From the NCBI RefSeq assembly GCF_022436675.1, contig NZ_JAKUJZ010000003.1:124001-188000 (forward strand): a DNA stretch of 64,000 bases, given 5' to 3'. Origin of the DNA: Rheinheimera hassiensis (GTDB lineage Bacteria; Pseudomonadota; Gammaproteobacteria; Enterobacterales; Alteromonadaceae). The notes beneath the pieces are model-generated. The model was given only the letters and a program-made list of their open reading frames with translations. It had not been told where the DNA came from and searched no databases. The position numbers and the translations under genes are program-made. Positions 23,541 to 37,758 of this stretch are shown piece after piece. Every line of letters begins with the position of its first letter. Positions within the stretch are counted from its first letter, which is position 1.

Positions 23541-24908
23541 TTAACCGACCTGAATTTTGGTGTCGGCATAGCGGGTTTTACGCTGTTTGGGTGTAGCAAG
23601 AAAATACGCCAGCGTTAGCGGCCCCAGCCTTCCGGCAATCATCAGAAAGATAATGACACACTGGCCCGGCACACTGAGGTTGCCGGTCAGGCCTCTGGAT
23701 AACCCTACGGTGCTAAGGGCTGATACCGCTTCAAAAGCAATATCAAGAAAAGGTGCTTTTTCCAGCGCGGTTAACACGAAAATAGCGATAAACACCAATG
23801 CCATGGAAACAAATGTCAGCGCCAGTGCCTTCAGTACCTGAGCATTGGGTATAGTGCGCCTGAGCAAGGTCACATCATCACGGCGGCGTAAAAAGGCATA
23901 GGTTGCCATCATTAAAATAACAAAGGTGCCCAACTTAATACCACTGGCGGTACTGAGCGAGCCGCCGCCGATAAACATCAGCAGTAAGGTCAGCACATTG
24001 CTGGCGTCTGTCATCTGGCTGTAATCCAGAGTGTTAAAACCGGCCGTACGCGGCGTTACCGCCTGAAACCAGGCTGCCAGTGCCTGATCTTTTAGCGACA
24101 AATTAGCCAGGGTAGCCGGGTTATTTGCCTCCAGTATCCACAGCAGCAAAAAGGCGATGACATTGATAATCAGGGTAGATAGCAGAACAATACGGGTATT
24201 GACACTAAGTAAACGCCAGCGCTGTTGTTTTTTCAGATCGATCAGCACAGTAAAACCGATACCCCCAATAATAAACAAGCTGCTGATAATCATATTTACC
24301 GCAATATTACCGGCATAAGGCATCAGGCTGCTACTGCTAAGGGCAAAGCCGGCATTATTAAAGGCCGATATGGTATAAAACACCGCATGCCAGCTTGCCG
24401 TGGCCAGGCCAAGCTCGCGATACCATGTCAGCGTTAGCAGCAAAATACCGGCCAATTCAATAACCACAGAGTACAGCAATACCGCCTTGGCAATTTGTAC
24501 CACCTGCGCCAGGCTGGTTTGGCTCATGGCTTCCTGGGCAATTTTTTGCTGTGTCAGGCCAATTTTTGCACCCAGGCTAATTACCGCCACCACGGCAAAT
24601 GTCATAAACCCTAACCCACCGGCCTGGATCAGTGCCGCAATAACCAGTTGGCCAAATAGCGTAAAATGTGTACCGGTATCCACCACTACCAGGCCGGTTA
24701 CCGTTACTGCCGATGTCGCAGTAAACAAGGCTTGCAGCAGGTTAAGCGGTGCCGTTGTTGCTGCGGGTAACGACAATAACAGCGCGCCAAGCAGAATCAA
24801 ACCGGCAAACCCCAGCGCCAGCACTGTGGGTGGGCTTAGGGCTAGCGTGCGCGACGATAATGGCCTGCGCCGAATATAAGGCAGGTATTGTGGTAGCCAG
24901 TTTTTCAT
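23541..24908 (-). CDS. ktrB: Ktr-type potassium channel-like transporter, membrane subunit
   Basis: 455 residues, the usual KtrB length and shorter than TrkH. Four pore-loop repeats each carry the selectivity glycine: SAVTVTGLVV, SAFNNAGFAL, TPRTAGFNT and STVGLSRGLT. It forms the potassium path in the inner membrane and is gated by the KtrA ring. Its ATG overlaps the ktrA stop codon by one base (TGATG), so translation is coupled. The family has Na-dependent members; nothing here decides this. Confidence 0.88.
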   Translation of the reverse strand: MKNWLPQYLPYIRRRPLSSRTLALSPPTVLALGFAGLILLGALLLSLPAATTAPLNLLQALFTATSAVTVTGLVVVDTGTHFTLFGQLVIAALIQAGGLGFMTFAVVAVISLGAKIGLTQQKIAQEAMSQTSLAQVVQIAKAVLLYSVVIELAGILLLTLTWYRELGLATASWHAVFYTISAFNNAGFALSSSSLMPYAGNIAVNMIISSLFIIGGIGFTVLIDLKKQQRWRLLSVNTRIVLLSTLIINVIAFLLLWILEANNPATLANLSLKDQALAAWFQAVTPRTAGFNTLDYSQMTDASNVLTLLLMFIGGGSLSTASGIKLGTFVILMMATYAFLRRRDDVTLLRRTIPNAQVLKALALTFVSMALVFIAIFVLTALEKAPFLDIAFEAVSALSTVGLSRGLTGNLSVPGQCVIIFLMIAGRLGPLTLAYFLATPKQRKTRYADTKIQVG

Positions 24909-25561
24909 CAGCTTAGCTTAGGTGCCAGTGATTTAAGAATTTCCAGGCTACCAGCCAGTATCAGGCTGTCGTGGCGCTCTAACACAAAATCTGTTGCTAC
25001 AGGTGATAGCAGTTTATCACGCCGCTTTACCAGCACCACTTTGACAAAAGCAGCGCCATCGGCCAGTAACTCATTAATGCGATGCCCTTCAAGACGTGGG
25101 CTTACATCAATCTCAACCAGGTACTGGTTATTTCCCAGCGCCATATACTGACTTACCATCGGGTAGTTCAGTGCCTGCGCAACTTTAACGCCCATCTCCT
25201 CTTCCGGGTGAATAATGCGGCTTACGCCCAGCCTCGATAAAATCATATGGTGTGCTTTAGAGGTGGCTTTTACCCAAACCTGGCTAACACCGATATTTTT
25301 CAGGTTCAGCACACATAAAATACTGGCTTCAAGGTTTTCGCCAATGGCCACCAGCACTGCATCACAACCGGCAATATCCAGCTCTTGCAGCGCCAGCTCA
25401 TCAGTGGCATCGGCTATTACGGCATGGCTTAACTGATCTGCCAGACGGTTAATAAACTTACTATTGCTATCAATGCCTATCACCTGATGCCCCAGACGCA
25501 TCAGTTCAAGTGATGCGGCTGAGCCAAACCGACCCAGCCCTATTACTGCAAATTGTGCCAT
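24908..25561 (-). CDS. ktrA: Ktr/Trk potassium uptake regulatory subunit (RCK domain)
   Basis: 217 residues: RCK_N Rossmann domain with nucleotide loop GLGRFGSA and acidic VIGID at the second strand, followed by an RCK_C domain. It binds ATP/ADP or NAD and gates KtrB. The start is set at MAQFAVIG, since the Rossmann strand must begin at once; an 11-residue extension lacks a ribosome site. First gene of ktrAB and divergent from trkH; the shared 184-bp region contains a KdpE-type box. Confidence 0.88.
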   Translation of the reverse strand: MAQFAVIGLGRFGSAASLELMRLGHQVIGIDSNSKFINRLADQLSHAVIADATDELALQELDIAGCDAVLVAIGENLEASILCVLNLKNIGVSQVWVKATSKAHHMILSRLGVSRIIHPEEEMGVKVAQALNYPMVSQYMALGNNQYLVEIDVSPRLEGHRINELLADGAAFVKVVLVKRRDKLLSPVATDFVLERHDSLILAGSLEILKSLAPKLS

Positions 25562-25637
25562 TTTAACTGTGCCACTATGAAAAATAGCCCGCATTAAAAA
25601 CCCAAACCGGGCGGCTGTCTGCGGCTTGGTAGCAATC

Positions 25638-25675
25638 TTTATAAAATCTTTATAATCAGCCGCCTAATCTTTAGA
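25638..25675. promoter_or_regulatory. KdpE-type box in the ktrA-trkH divergent promoter region
   Basis: TTTATA-AAATC-TTTATA (25638-25654) fits the E. coli KdpE direct repeat TTTATA-N5-TTTACA with its 11-bp period. A third half-site TTTAGA lies 21 bp further (25670), two helical turns away. The same spacer AAATC occurs in the kdp box at 37742-37758. It lies about 75 bp from ktrA and 92 bp from trkH. Confidence 0.6.
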
Positions 25676-25745
25676 AAAGCTTTACAGCATCAAGCAGCCA
25701 AAATCGTTAGGCTTTACCTACCAACCGGCCTGTTCGCAGTACCTT

Positions 25746-27230
25746 ATGTCGACCTACTCCTACTCTTTTACCGGTACCGACACCGGCAACAGGCATTTCT
25801 TCTACCGGGTTATTGGCTATTTACTGCTTAGCCTGAGCGGCGCACAACTGCTCACCACCGTTGTCAGCTTTAGCCTGGCCGACAAAGCTTTCTGGAGTTT
25901 TTTATTATCGGCCTGTATTACGGCCATTGCCGGTAGCATGCTGGTTGTGCGTTCCGGCGGCGTTGTGCAGCTAAAAAAACGGTATTTGTTTTTACTCACC
26001 ACGCTTTGCTGGCTAACGATTTGCGTATTTTCGGCGTTGCCGCTTTACCTCAGTATTCCCGGCCTGAGTATTACCGACGCCTGGTTTGAAACGGTATCGG
26101 CCATTACCACCACCGGCTCTACCGTATTAAGCGGGTTGGATACCATGCCAAAAGGCGTATTGTTCTGGCGCGCGCTGCTGCAATGGATTGGCGGCATCGG
26201 CATTATCGTAATGGCGATTGCCATTTTACCGGCCCTGAAAATCGGTGGTATGAAGCTGTTTAAAACCGAAAGCTCGGACATTTCTGAAAAAATACTGCCA
26301 CGCAGCAGCAGTCTGTCGGCCTATATTCTGCTGGTGTATTTAAGCATCAGCGCGGCGGCTGCCCTTAGCTACGCTATTGGCGGTATGTCGTGGTTTGATG
26401 CCATTACCCACGCCATGACATCGGCCGCCACCGGCGGTTTTGCCAATTACGACGCTTCGTTTGGTTACTTTAATGACAAACCCTGGTTACTCTGGTTGGC
26501 CAGTTTATGGATGCTGCTGGCGGCTTTGCCTTTTGTACTCTTTGTCGGCATGGCAAAAGGTGACAAATGGGCTTTGCTGCGCGACCCACAGGTAAAGGCA
26601 TTTCTGGCAGTAGTGCTGGCCGTTACCCTGATGCTGACCTTATACCAGATACACCATCACGACAGACCCTGGCTGGACGCTTTAACACATACGCTGTTTA
26701 ATGTTGTATCAGTAATTACTACCTGCGGTTATGCCTCAGAAGACTATTCGCTTTGGGGCAGTATGGCGGTAGTGCTGTTTTTTTACCTGACTTTTAGTGG
26801 CGGCTGCTCTGGCTCAACCTCGGGCGGTTTGAAGATTTTCCGTACCCAGCTGGCCGGTTATTTATTGCTGAAACAATTAAATTTATTGATCCACCCCAAT
26901 GCTATCTGGACGCAAAAATATGGCAGCAAAAAAGTAGACGATGCGCTGCTTGGCGCAGTACTGGCATTCGCCTTTGTTTATTTTGCTACCATAGCCATAC
27001 TGGCACTGGTGCTGTCGATGTTTAACCTGGATTTTGTTACCGCAATCACCGGTGCCGCTACGGCTGTCAGTAACGTTGGCCCCGGTTTGGGTGATATTAT
27101 CGGCCCGGCTGGTAACTTTGCCTCATTGCCGGATGGTGCAAAATGGAGTTTAACCCTGGGTATGTTACTGGGGCGGCTGGAAATTTTAACTATGTTACTG
27201 TTATTTACGCCTATGTACTGGCGCTACTGA
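25746..27230 (+). CDS. trkH: Trk-type potassium uptake protein, membrane subunit
   Basis: 494 residues, the usual TrkH length. Pore loops with selectivity glycines are seen in SAITTTGSTVLSGL, SAATGGFANYD, SVITTCGYASEDYS and AVSNVGPGLGDIIG. Inner-membrane potassium uptake. It starts an operon with a KdpD-like kinase (13 bp downstream) and an OmpR-type regulator, which is not the usual trkH setting. No trkA lies beside it; the divergent ktrA or a distant trkA would have to gate it. Confidence 0.88.
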   Translation: MSTYSYSFTGTDTGNRHFFYRVIGYLLLSLSGAQLLTTVVSFSLADKAFWSFLLSACITAIAGSMLVVRSGGVVQLKKRYLFLLTTLCWLTICVFSALPLYLSIPGLSITDAWFETVSAITTTGSTVLSGLDTMPKGVLFWRALLQWIGGIGIIVMAIAILPALKIGGMKLFKTESSDISEKILPRSSSLSAYILLVYLSISAAAALSYAIGGMSWFDAITHAMTSAATGGFANYDASFGYFNDKPWLLWLASLWMLLAALPFVLFVGMAKGDKWALLRDPQVKAFLAVVLAVTLMLTLYQIHHHDRPWLDALTHTLFNVVSVITTCGYASEDYSLWGSMAVVLFFYLTFSGGCSGSTSGGLKIFRTQLAGYLLLKQLNLLIHPNAIWTQKYGSKKVDDALLGAVLAFAFVYFATIAILALVLSMFNLDFVTAITGAATAVSNVGPGLGDIIGPAGNFASLPDGAKWSLTLGMLLGRLEILTMLLLFTPMYWRY

Positions 27231-27243
27231 GTTGATACCACCA

Positions 27244-28311
27244 ATGAAATTACTGCAAAGCGGGCATTATGCCATGTGGCAGCTATTACTGCTGGCGCTT
27301 GTTGTTCCGCTGTTAATTACGCTGGCATTGTTACCTGCCAGAGCATTACTGACCACCACAGATGTGGCAATGCTGCAACTGCTGTGGGTAACCTGGATAG
27401 CGCAGCAGGCGGGGCAGCGCTGGGCCATTATTACCACCATTAACAGCGTGGTGCTGCTGGACTTTCTTTTTGTAGCACCCTACTACACCTTATATGTGCA
27501 CCAGGTTGACTACCTGATCACCTTTATTGTGATGCTATTGCTGGGCATTTTTATTGGCCGCTTATCCGGCCGTTTACGCGTTGAACTGGCCAGGGCGAAA
27601 AAACATATGCGCCAGCGCCAGCTACTGGCCGGTAAAACACGCCAGGCCCGGATGCAGGCAGAGCTTGAACACAGCCGCGCCATGATGCTGCGCTCTATTT
27701 CACATGATTTACGCACACCGCTGGCCACCATTATGGGCGCCTCCAGCATGCTGGCCGATAAAGAACTTCAGCTTAGCGAAGCAGAAGTACGTGAGCAGGC
27801 CGGCAATATTTACCGCCAGAGCAGCCTGCTTAGCGAGCACTTTGACAAAGTTATGGAGCTAAGCCGGGTGCAGCAACCGCAAAGCACTATGCAACTGGAA
27901 TCGCTTGCCGTTACCGATGTCATCTCAGCCGCCATTGCCAGGCGCGCCGCCTTACTGGCCACACAGCCATTTGAAGTACAGCTTGTCACAGCCGACTGCT
28001 TTGCCGACGCCACCTTGCTGGAAATCGCGCTGGCGAATATGCTGGAAAACGCGGTCAAACACGGCCAGGCCCCGGTTTGCATTAGTTTTACCCGGCAAAA
28101 CGGCCATTTTATGCTAAGCGTTTGCAATGCTGCAGCGCCTAAACGCAACGTGCAGCGGGACAGTGGCACCGGCCTTGGCACCGCTATTTGCAAAGCAGTG
28201 ATGCATTTGCATAACGGCGACTTTAGTTTGCAGCACGACACAGAGCACGCTTGTGTTACTGCCCTGCTACGCTGGCCGCAAAGCAGTAATAACGGAGTAC
28301 AGCATGGCTGA
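27244..28311 (+). CDS. Shortened KdpD-like sensor histidine kinase
   Basis: 355 residues when started at the ATG after TGAGTTG. Four membrane helices of the DUF4118 type, with the signature VAPYYTLYVHQVDY matching TEPYYTFFV in full-length KdpD, are followed by HisKA (SHDLRTPLA, phospho-His154) and HATPase (N box ANMLENAVKH, G box GTGLGTAI). The N-terminal KdpD and UspA-like domains are absent, so it keeps only the membrane sensor and kinase core. Lies between trkH and a response regulator it overlaps by 8 bp, and probably signals membrane or ionic state to that regulator. Confidence 0.87.
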   Translation: MKLLQSGHYAMWQLLLLALVVPLLITLALLPARALLTTTDVAMLQLLWVTWIAQQAGQRWAIITTINSVVLLDFLFVAPYYTLYVHQVDYLITFIVMLLLGIFIGRLSGRLRVELARAKKHMRQRQLLAGKTRQARMQAELEHSRAMMLRSISHDLRTPLATIMGASSMLADKELQLSEAEVREQAGNIYRQSSLLSEHFDKVMELSRVQQPQSTMQLESLAVTDVISAAIARRAALLATQPFEVQLVTADCFADATLLEIALANMLENAVKHGQAPVCISFTRQNGHFMLSVCNAAAPKRNVQRDSGTGLGTAICKAVMHLHNGDFSLQHDTEHACVTALLRWPQSSNNGVQHG

Positions 28312-28978
28312 AACGATACTGGTGCTGGAAGACGATCCGGCAATGCAAAGCTTTCTTGGTACCTTGCTTAAAACCCAGCAGCATCAGGTGCATAGCTTTA
28401 GTGAAGGCATCGCCGCTTTGCAGCATCTGGTGCAACAGCCGGTAGATTTAATTTTGCTGGATTTAGGCCTGGCAGATATGGACGGCCAGCTGTGGCTGGC
28501 ACAATTACGCAGCTGGTGCGACACGCCGGTAATAGTCATTTCCGCCCGCCACCGTGAGCAGGACAAAGTGCAGGCGCTGGATAACGGCGCTAACGACTAT
28601 GTTACCAAACCCTTTAGTGCGGCAGAGCTGCTGGCACGCGTTCGGGCGAACTTACGCCATAATACGCCACAGCAGCAGGCATTCAGCTTTGGTAATATCA
28701 GGCTGGACCCGGTGCTACGTCAGGTTAGCCGCGCCGGTGCTGAAGTACACCTGACCAAAACAGAATACGATATTTTGCTTTTGCTGATGCGCCATGCCGA
28801 TAAAGTACTGACCCACAACCAGATCCTGACTCAGGTATGGGGTAAAACCTATACCGACAGGCCAGAATATGTGCGGGTACATATGGCGCAGCTACGGCAA
28901 AAACTGGAAGACACTCCGGCCGCACCGGTATACCTGAAAACCGAGCCTGGCGTCGGTTACCGGCTTAAAATGACCTGA
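28304..28978 (+). CDS. OmpR/KdpE-type response regulator of the trkH operon
   Basis: 224 residues: receiver domain with acidic pair LEDD and phospho-acceptor Asp53 in LLDLGLADMDG, conserved Thr/Ser and Lys (VISARH, TKPFSAAELL), then an OmpR winged helix with recognition region RPEYVRVHMAQLRQKL. The start is at ATG after ACGGAG; the gene overlaps the kinase gene by 8 bp. A paralogue of KdpE, which is encoded convergently 2 bp away. Which of the two reads the AAATC-spaced boxes is open. Confidence 0.9.
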   Translation: MAETILVLEDDPAMQSFLGTLLKTQQHQVHSFSEGIAALQHLVQQPVDLILLDLGLADMDGQLWLAQLRSWCDTPVIVISARHREQDKVQALDNGANDYVTKPFSAAELLARVRANLRHNTPQQQAFSFGNIRLDPVLRQVSRAGAEVHLTKTEYDILLLLMRHADKVLTHNQILTQVWGKTYTDRPEYVRVHMAQLRQKLEDTPAAPVYLKTEPGVGYRLKMT

Positions 28979-28979
28979 A

Positions 28980-29657
28980 TCACAGCATTAGCCGGTAACC
29001 GATACCGGCTTCGGTGATTAAGTAGCGCGGTGTGGTGGGGTCGTCGCCTATTTTCTGCCGGATATGGCTGACCACAATGCGCAGATAGTGCGTATCCTGG
29101 CCATGACTGGGCCCCCAGATTTCTTCCAACAGTTGTTTTTGCGTGATCACGCACTGGCGATGCCGCGCCAGTTTAGCCAGTACTGCATATTCTTTTGGTG
29201 TTAAATCAATAACATCACCGTTGCAACACACCAGGCGCCGTGCCAGATCTATTTTAAGATAACCATCATCCAGCAGCGCCGGCGTGGTATCGGGCAGCCG
29301 GTCACGTAACTGTGCTCTTATTCTGGCCAGCAATTCTTCCACACTAAAGGGCTTGGTAACAAAGTCCTGAGCGCCGATATCCAGCGCTTGTACTTTATCG
29401 GCGTCGCCGCTGCGTACCGATAATATAATCACCGGCACCTTAGAAAAGCTGCGCAGCTCAGTCAGCAGCTCTAACCCATTGCCATCGGGCAGGCCAAGAT
29501 CCAGCACCACTAAATCCGGCTGCTGCCGCACCGTGGCGGCCAGGCCGGTGGCCACCGATTCGGCCTCAGATACCTGATAACCGACACTTTTCAGCGCAAT
29601 ACGCAGCATTTTGCGAATTTGGCTTTCATCATCAATAACTAAAATATGCGCCGACAA
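28980..29657 (-). CDS. kdpE: Response regulator KdpE
   Basis: 225 residues: receiver domain with Asp53 in VLDLGLPDGNG, then an OmpR-type winged helix (LRIVVSHIRQKIGDDPTTPRYL region) that matches E. coli KdpE closely. When phosphorylated by KdpD it activates kdpFABC. It follows kdpD with a 5-bp gap and meets the second response regulator gene tail-to-tail with no space for a terminator. Confidence 0.92.
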   Translation of the reverse strand: MSAHILVIDDESQIRKMLRIALKSVGYQVSEAESVATGLAATVRQQPDLVVLDLGLPDGNGLELLTELRSFSKVPVIILSVRSGDADKVQALDIGAQDFVTKPFSVEELLARIRAQLRDRLPDTTPALLDDGYLKIDLARRLVCCNGDVIDLTPKEYAVLAKLARHRQCVITQKQLLEEIWGPSHGQDTHYLRIVVSHIRQKIGDDPTTPRYLITEAGIGYRLML

Positions 29658-37579: not shown

Positions 37580-37660
37580 TCAGAACTTTTCAGGTGCCAA
37601 CATGGCAACGATTAACACAGCGCTTAATGCGCCAACTAACAACAGTAAAACCCAACCCAT
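37580..37660 (-). CDS. kdpF: Potassium-transporting ATPase small subunit F
   Basis: A 26-residue reading frame: MGWVLLLLVGALSAVLIVAM followed by a six-residue tail. It is one membrane helix of exactly the size and place of KdpF, which stabilises the Kdp complex. AAGGA lies eight bases before its ATG, and kdpA begins 10 bp after its stop. First gene of the operon. Confidence 0.88.
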   Translation of the reverse strand: MGWVLLLLVGALSAVLIVAMLAPEKF

Positions 37661-37741
37661 TTGCCGTATCCTTATGTGAAAACACGGTGCTAAAGGTAGG
37701 TGTAAGCGGTGTAAAATCTCCAGTAACGTCAGCGCGCCAGG

Positions 37742-37758
37742 CATAAAGATTTCGTAAA
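37742..37758 (-). promoter_or_regulatory. KdpE-type box upstream of kdpFABC
   Basis: On the minus strand TTTACG-AAATC-TTTATG, an 11-bp-period direct repeat fitting the E. coli KdpE site, about 82 bp before kdpF. Spacer AAATC is identical to that of the ktrA-trkH box. Confidence 0.62.

Follow-up and report, generated by a model that had tools for sequence, protein, structure and literature searches.

The trkH locus and its tandem element

The window, by which we mean the whole stretch of 64,000 nucleotides from Rheinheimera hassiensis that was analysed, carries a trkH-kinase-regulator operon on the plus strand, the genes ktrA and ktrB diverging from it on the minus strand and, beyond the operon, a kdp cluster. 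The features referred to below are as follows:

23541-24908, minus strand: ktrB (TrkH family; TIGR00933 over its cut-off)
24908-25561, minus strand: ktrA, with the probable true start MAQFAVIG
25593-25598, minus strand: -10-like TTTAAT of the predicted ktrA promoter, 17 bp after the -35
25616-25621, minus strand: -35-like CAGACA of the predicted ktrA promoter
25638-25654, plus strand: box 1, TTTATAAAATCTTTATA, half-sites TTTATA at 25638 and 25649
25670-25686, plus strand: box 2, TTTAGA-AAAGC-TTTACA, half-sites TTTAGA at 25670 and TTTACA at 25681
25708-25713, plus strand: -10-like TAGGCT of the predicted trkH promoter, 21 bp after box 2
25746-27230, plus strand: trkH-type potassium transporter (PF02386, 190.3 bits)
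27232-28311, plus strand: sensor kinase; domains DUF4118 (membrane domain of KdpD), HisKA and HATPase
28304-28978, plus strand: OmpR-family regulator, a KdpE paralogue and the proposed reader of boxes 1 and 2
28980-29657, minus strand: kdpE
37580-37660, minus strand: small ORF of 26 aa, presumably kdpF
37693-37698, minus strand: kdp -10-like TACCTT, 11 bp after kdp box 2
37710-37726, minus strand: kdp box 2, TTACTG-GAGAT-TTTACA, at +32 from kdp box 1, first half-site degenerate
37742-37758, minus strand: kdp box 1, TTTACGAAATCTTTATG (TTTACG-AAATC-TTTATG), kept in all four kdp genomes of the genus

The minus strand beyond the trkH operon holds, in this order, kdpE, kdpD, a porin-like gene, kdpC, kdpB and kdpA, and the 26-aa ORF before kdpA is taken to be kdpF from its position and its likeness to KdpF. 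The porin-like gene belongs to the TorF family (TIGR02001, 32357-33115); it lies between kdpC and kdpD and is also present in the kdp cluster of the other three kdp genomes of the genus. Only a single base (28978-28980) separates the ORFs of the trkH-operon regulator and kdpE, two paralogues with an identity of 41% that stand tail to tail.

A first-pass annotation had described the repeat TTTATA-AAATC-TTTATA at 25638-25654, here named box 1, together with a third half-site TTTAGA at 25670, as a KdpE-type box shared by the divergent ktrAB and trkH promoters. Both the repeat and the third half-site were confirmed in the sequence. However, the repeat turned out to be half of a larger element, because TTTAGA at 25670 opens a second pair that had been missed, and the distance from box 1 to box 2 is exactly 32 bp. 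The four half-sites begin at 0, 11, 32 and 43 bp, near whole helical turns. The description as a KdpE-type site was borne out by the TTTAYR-like half-sites in direct repeat with a 5-bp spacer, an arrangement that is complete in box 1 and recurs in box 2 with TTTAGA as the first half. Relative to the transcription start predicted for trkH, near 25720, box 1 would extend from -82 to -66 and box 2 from -50 to -34; the starts predicted for ktrA and kdpF are near 25586 and 37686, respectively.

The two-half-site pattern TTTAYR-N5-TTTAYR occurs twice in the window as opposed to an expectation of 0.26, a count reached in 2 of 100 shuffles. Across the genome, 21 matches compare with 31 for the reversed control, i.e., there is no enrichment, and the 6-5-6 pattern was therefore rejected as evidence by itself. 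The spacer AAATC, common to box 1 and to the kdp box 1 of the window, had been put forward as an argument against chance. This holds insofar as AAATC is found in only two of the 21 genome-wide matches, which are precisely these potassium loci; the identity is, however, partly that of a longer half-site, because AATC also directly precedes the half-sites at 25638 and 25670.

Conservation of the element and the choice of regulator

A search with the kinase located the trkH-kinase-regulator operon in 13 of 31 genomes of the genus. The 17-mer of box 1 is exact in 12 of these, as a single copy each and always before trkH, and the thirteenth genome (G023) carries it before trkH with a single change; no exact copy was found in the 18 genus genomes that lack the operon. 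The conservation in relatives on which the first-pass annotation had made its proposal depend is thus present (12 of the 31 genomes exact), and with all exact copies before trkH it takes box 1 beyond chance. Box 2 is identical in eight of the 13 loci and shows one to three changes in the other five, so that within the genus the sequence of box 1 is better kept. In the alignment of the 13 promoters, the boxes are in register in every row against diverged surrounding bases. The kinase of this operon is 97% identical in Rheinheimera sp. EpRS3.

Without mismatches, the spaced pattern of four half-sites was found in nine of the 31 genomes, at one place each, the trkH promoter. With at most one mismatch there are 49 matches, 11 of them before trkH, compared with 24 for the reversed control; about 12 of the 49 are one repeated look-alike (xTTAAGC...TTTAA...). 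When up to two mismatches were allowed in the 17-mer, scattered matches appeared in 27 of the 31 genomes, and no clear further regulon emerged from the seven whose DNA was viewed. Copies with one mismatch in genomes without the trkH operon are located at G018:C1:2638381, G018:C1:3248629 and G022:C47:583.

On the divergent side, ktrAB adjoins the element in only five of the 13 operon loci, and shared control of ktrAB was therefore rejected as the reason for the conservation. Four loci (L016, L017, L023 and L024) have a 153-aa gene preceding trkH in place of ktrA, with the boxes still present, as though the operon moved together with its operator. Where ktrAB is present, control by the element is possible: the trkH-operon regulator on box 1 might also set ktrAB from a site shared by both promoters, which we regard as a tentative proposal with somewhat less than even chances. 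It is favoured by a predicted ktrA promoter of the form CWGACW-17-TTTAAT, whose -35 lies 16 bp from box 1 in all five ktrAB loci and whose sigma-70-like score there is 9-10 of 12, as opposed to 0-8 at the same place in the eight other loci; box 1 would then be located at about -68 to -52 of ktrA, similar to the E. coli KdpE site. However, the direct repeats would be reversed in orientation with respect to ktrA, box 1 is conserved equally where ktrAB is absent, and a locus without ktrAB (L018) also scores 8. Moreover, the five loci represent three lineages, three of the five being close relatives, and the fixed distance may reflect mere shared descent. The ktrA promoter is absent from the output of the sigma-70 scan because the scan demands A at the second -10 position. 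Concerning the gene itself, an alternative start at 25594 gives a longer ORF that would run into the -10-like hexamer, and the start at 25561 (MAQFAVIG) is probably the likelier one; in L025, AAGGAG is found just upstream of the place of the MAQFAVIG start.

The regulator named in the first-pass annotation was KdpE. A single KdpE regulon joining kdp, trkH and ktrAB, with KdpE as the main regulator, would agree with the fit of the half-sites to the consensus TTTATA-N5-TTTACA (PMC3264566), with the AAATC shared by the kdp box of the same genome and with the position of kdpE as the tail-to-tail neighbour of the trkH operon. However, kdpA together with a KdpD domain over the cut-off is present in only four of the 31 genomes; in two more, including the operon genome G013 (24.0 bits; cut-off 26.1), the KdpD match stays under the cut-off. 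In nine of the 13 operon genomes, protein searches found no kdpA, no KdpD over the cut-off and no KdpE orthologue. With the KdpE of the window as query, orthologues of 98-100% identity were obtained in the four kdp genomes, and the best match in the other nine was the trkH-operon regulator itself, with 39-43% identity. These nine genomes nevertheless keep the element: box 1 is exact in eight and has one change in one, and box 2 is the same as in the window in four and carries one to three changes in five. KdpE was therefore rejected as the necessary regulator. In addition, the kdp and trkH promoters of the window place the -10 differently (11 and 21 bp after box 2, respectively), and the direct KdpE targets determined genome-wide in E. 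coli are kdp, adeP, uxaA and uxaC, with trk absent from the main text of that report (PMC7657598). Taken together, a common KdpE regulon is improbable. Since the element is kept in nine of 13 operon genomes without kdp or KdpE and adjoins ktrAB in five only, neither explains its conservation; it goes with the trkH operon.

Most likely, the element is a docking site not for KdpE but for the KdpE paralogue encoded in the operon itself; in the four kdp genomes, KdpE could bind the same half-sites. The best NCBIfam model of the trkH-operon regulator is KdpE with 195.9 bits, under the equivalog cut-off of 325, below which the KdpE of the window also remains with 237.8 bits. In a tree of 20 OmpR-family regulators, whose outgroup rows are long-branched, it groups with KdpE with a support of 98/96. 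All nine trkH regulators of the tree have Arg at the position of KdpE R193, which is also invariant in an alignment of 13 trkH regulators and is Asp in E. coli PhoB, OmpR, CreB, ArcA and PhoP. This residue is conserved in the KdpE family, and the exchange R193A abolishes binding (PMC3264566). The equivalents of R200 and T215 are likewise present, as in all 20 rows of the tree. In the kinase of the operon, the N-terminal KdpD sensor domain PF02702 was not found, only DUF4118, HisKA and HATPase.

It is very improbable that the AT-rich repeats belong to the core promoter, or to an unspecific AT-rich sequence upstream of it, instead of being a regulator site. TTTATA does read TATAAA on the opposite strand, and two half-sites alone are not enriched in the genome; however, all 13 genus loci keep the half-sites in register while the bases between them have diverged, a TAnnnT follows at a fixed distance and the exact 17-mer is restricted to genomes with the operon.

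Double boxes in kdp promoters and distant trkH operons

The double-box layout leads to a direct prediction for the textbook E. coli kdpFABC promoter (NC_000913; L082). There, the known box TTTATA-CTTTT-TTTACA, 99 bp before kdpF, is followed at exactly 32 bp by a second KdpE-like pair, TTTGCG-AAATC-TTTGCA. The published KdpE footprint at this promoter covers -72 to -50, and the site, with the consensus mentioned above, is described as one pair in a 24-bp logo (PMC3264566). Assuming the -10 at +59, box 1 of E. coli would correspond to -71 to -55, in agreement with the footprint, and box 2 to -39 to -23, outside it. The footprint is rather far upstream, and the conserved second box at about -39 to -23 lies where a PhoB-like activator is expected to touch sigma. 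A second KdpE box is not mentioned in the titles and abstract openings of the open-access literature searched. The KdpE motif of M. smegmatis is a different, A-rich one (PMC5401905).

For a broader comparison, 88 kdp upstream regions of the class Gammaproteobacteria were collected; the set leaves out L108 (own genome twice) as well as L109 and L112 (truncated kdpA), and G144 and two second hits gave no locus. With free placement, the level of 21 of 24 half-site matches is attained by 33 of the 88 regions at spacing 32, by 12 at spacing 30, by 11 at 44, by 10 at 43 and by no more than six at any other spacing. One representative per genus gave 64 rows from at most 63 genera, as g299 is represented twice (L145, L156) and E. 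coli was entered as a genus of its own, to which another row may be kin. Of these, 47 rows from 22 families could be anchored on their best single pair (at least 11 of 12); 17 could not, among them L145, a contig end. A second pair (at least 9 of 12) stands at +32 in 31 of the 47 anchored promoters, followed by offsets 30 and 43 with 10 each; in 500 shuffles of the downstream DNA, no offset gave more than five. Single half-sites matching in at least 5 of 6 bases occur at +43 in 33 of 47 (at most eight in the shuffles) but at +32 in only 16, which means that box 2 often has a degenerate first half. In 24 of the 47, a TAnnnT is located at +59, 10 bp after box 2.

In family f18, which was taken as Enterobacteriaceae solely from its promoter likeness to E. 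coli, spacing 32 scores best in 12 of the 14 kdp regions, as it does in E. coli itself. In family f184 (rows among L129-L170), most regions are best at spacing 33 or 44 and have a poor first half of box 2. For other classes, 40 of 73 matches, intended as one per genus and with genus g445 left out, were examined; 18 regions could be anchored, whereas in the other 22 every pair stayed below 11 of 12. Among the 18, the second pair is found at +32 in three and at +33 in three (at most two in the shuffles), the last half-site at +44 in 10 and at +43 in five, and TAnnnT at +59 in two. A full second box is not general outside the class.

Named genomes were also scanned with the kinase alignment in the form of two peptide patterns of limited reach, which gave 26 loci: 12 from the genus set again, 12 distant trkH-kinase-regulator operons (L068-L079), and L080 and L081, which are other systems. 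The kinases of the distant operons are 44-52% identical. After L071 (partial trkH match), L080 and L081 were dropped from the promoter set, 11 distant promoters were read, and in all of them the position of box 2 is occupied by a pair. Both boxes, 32 bp apart, are present in L068; in the 10 others (L069-L079), only the box-2 position holds a pair, which reads YTTATA-CAATC-TTKATA. As regards position, box 2 is the constant one, with box 1 as an extra site. Each of the 24 trkH promoters read, many of them close relatives, has a TAnnnT starting exactly 21 bp downstream of box 2; TAnnnT is a loose motif, and the -10 hexamers are weak. The -10 therewith sits one helical turn further from the boxes in 24 of 24 trkH promoters than in kdp promoters, as in the window itself. 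The kdp promoter of the window retains the spacing seen at kdp promoters, and this would fit separate roles for KdpE at kdp and the trkH regulator at trkH.

Proposed mechanism and comparison with known systems

We propose, with a probability of about 0.83, that the element serves the trkH-kinase-regulator operon as its operator and is read by the regulator encoded in the same operon, which is activated by the KdpD-like kinase and brings about autoinduction. Several observations count against this proposal, namely the weaker conservation of box 2 within the genus, the distant operons with a single box, the score of the regulator under the KdpE cut-off, the 17-mers with one mismatch in genomes without the operon, and the weak -10 hexamers. 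On the side of the kdp promoters, the lack of a clear first box in 17 of the 64 representatives and the spacing of 33 or 44 in most rows of f184 are likewise unfavourable.

According to this model, which is based on promoter layout and protein similarity, the active KdpD-like kinase would give rise to two phosphorylated regulator dimers bound head-to-tail on boxes 2 and 1. Box 2 would border the -35 position on its upstream side, with box 1 on the same face of the helix a further three turns upstream; most likely, the dimer on box 2 contacts the polymerase, and the second dimer on box 1 adds to the effect. The bound dimers would recruit RNA polymerase to the weak trkH promoter, and the operon would thereby raise its own transporter and its own regulator, presumably by activation rather than repression and probably in response to low potassium or turgor. 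In kdp promoters, box 2 would cover the -35, whereas in trkH promoters the boxes would be placed one turn upstream, box 2 ending at about -34 beside the -35.

On balance, we also favour a more general reading, in which KdpE-type regulators would generally use a double operator with boxes 32 bp apart and box 2 over the -35, overlooked even in E. coli kdpFABC. The KdpE paralogue of the Rheinheimera group would have taken this layout to trkH with RNA polymerase shifted by one turn, making a usually constitutive type of transporter self-inducing. For E. coli, Trk has been described as a constitutive system (PMC5401905); the Trk transporter of this locus comes with a KdpE-like switch of its own and with a conserved candidate operator.

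Compared with the KdpE site of E. coli kdpFABC, the element has the same half-site, the same 5-bp spacer and the same head-to-tail orientation, and in both a second pair follows 32 bp on. However, the element serves trkH and not kdp, goes with another regulator, and has 21 bp between box 2 and the -10, compared with about 10 bp in E. coli. The trkH system resembles the KdpD/KdpE system in the DUF4118 domain of its kinase and in the equivalents of R193, R200 and T215 in its regulator; in contrast to it, the kinase lacks PF02702, the operon contains trkH and the system occurs without kdp. In PhoB-type promoters, an example of class II activation, the boxes are adjacent 22-bp units and a box covers the -35. 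The direct-repeat register of 11 bp and the box over or beside the -35 are shared with these tandem boxes, and kdp promoters, like PhoB-type ones, have a TAnnnT about 10 bp after the box. Unlike in the PhoB type, the boxes here are 32 bp apart, and the trkH variant is placed one turn further from the -10.
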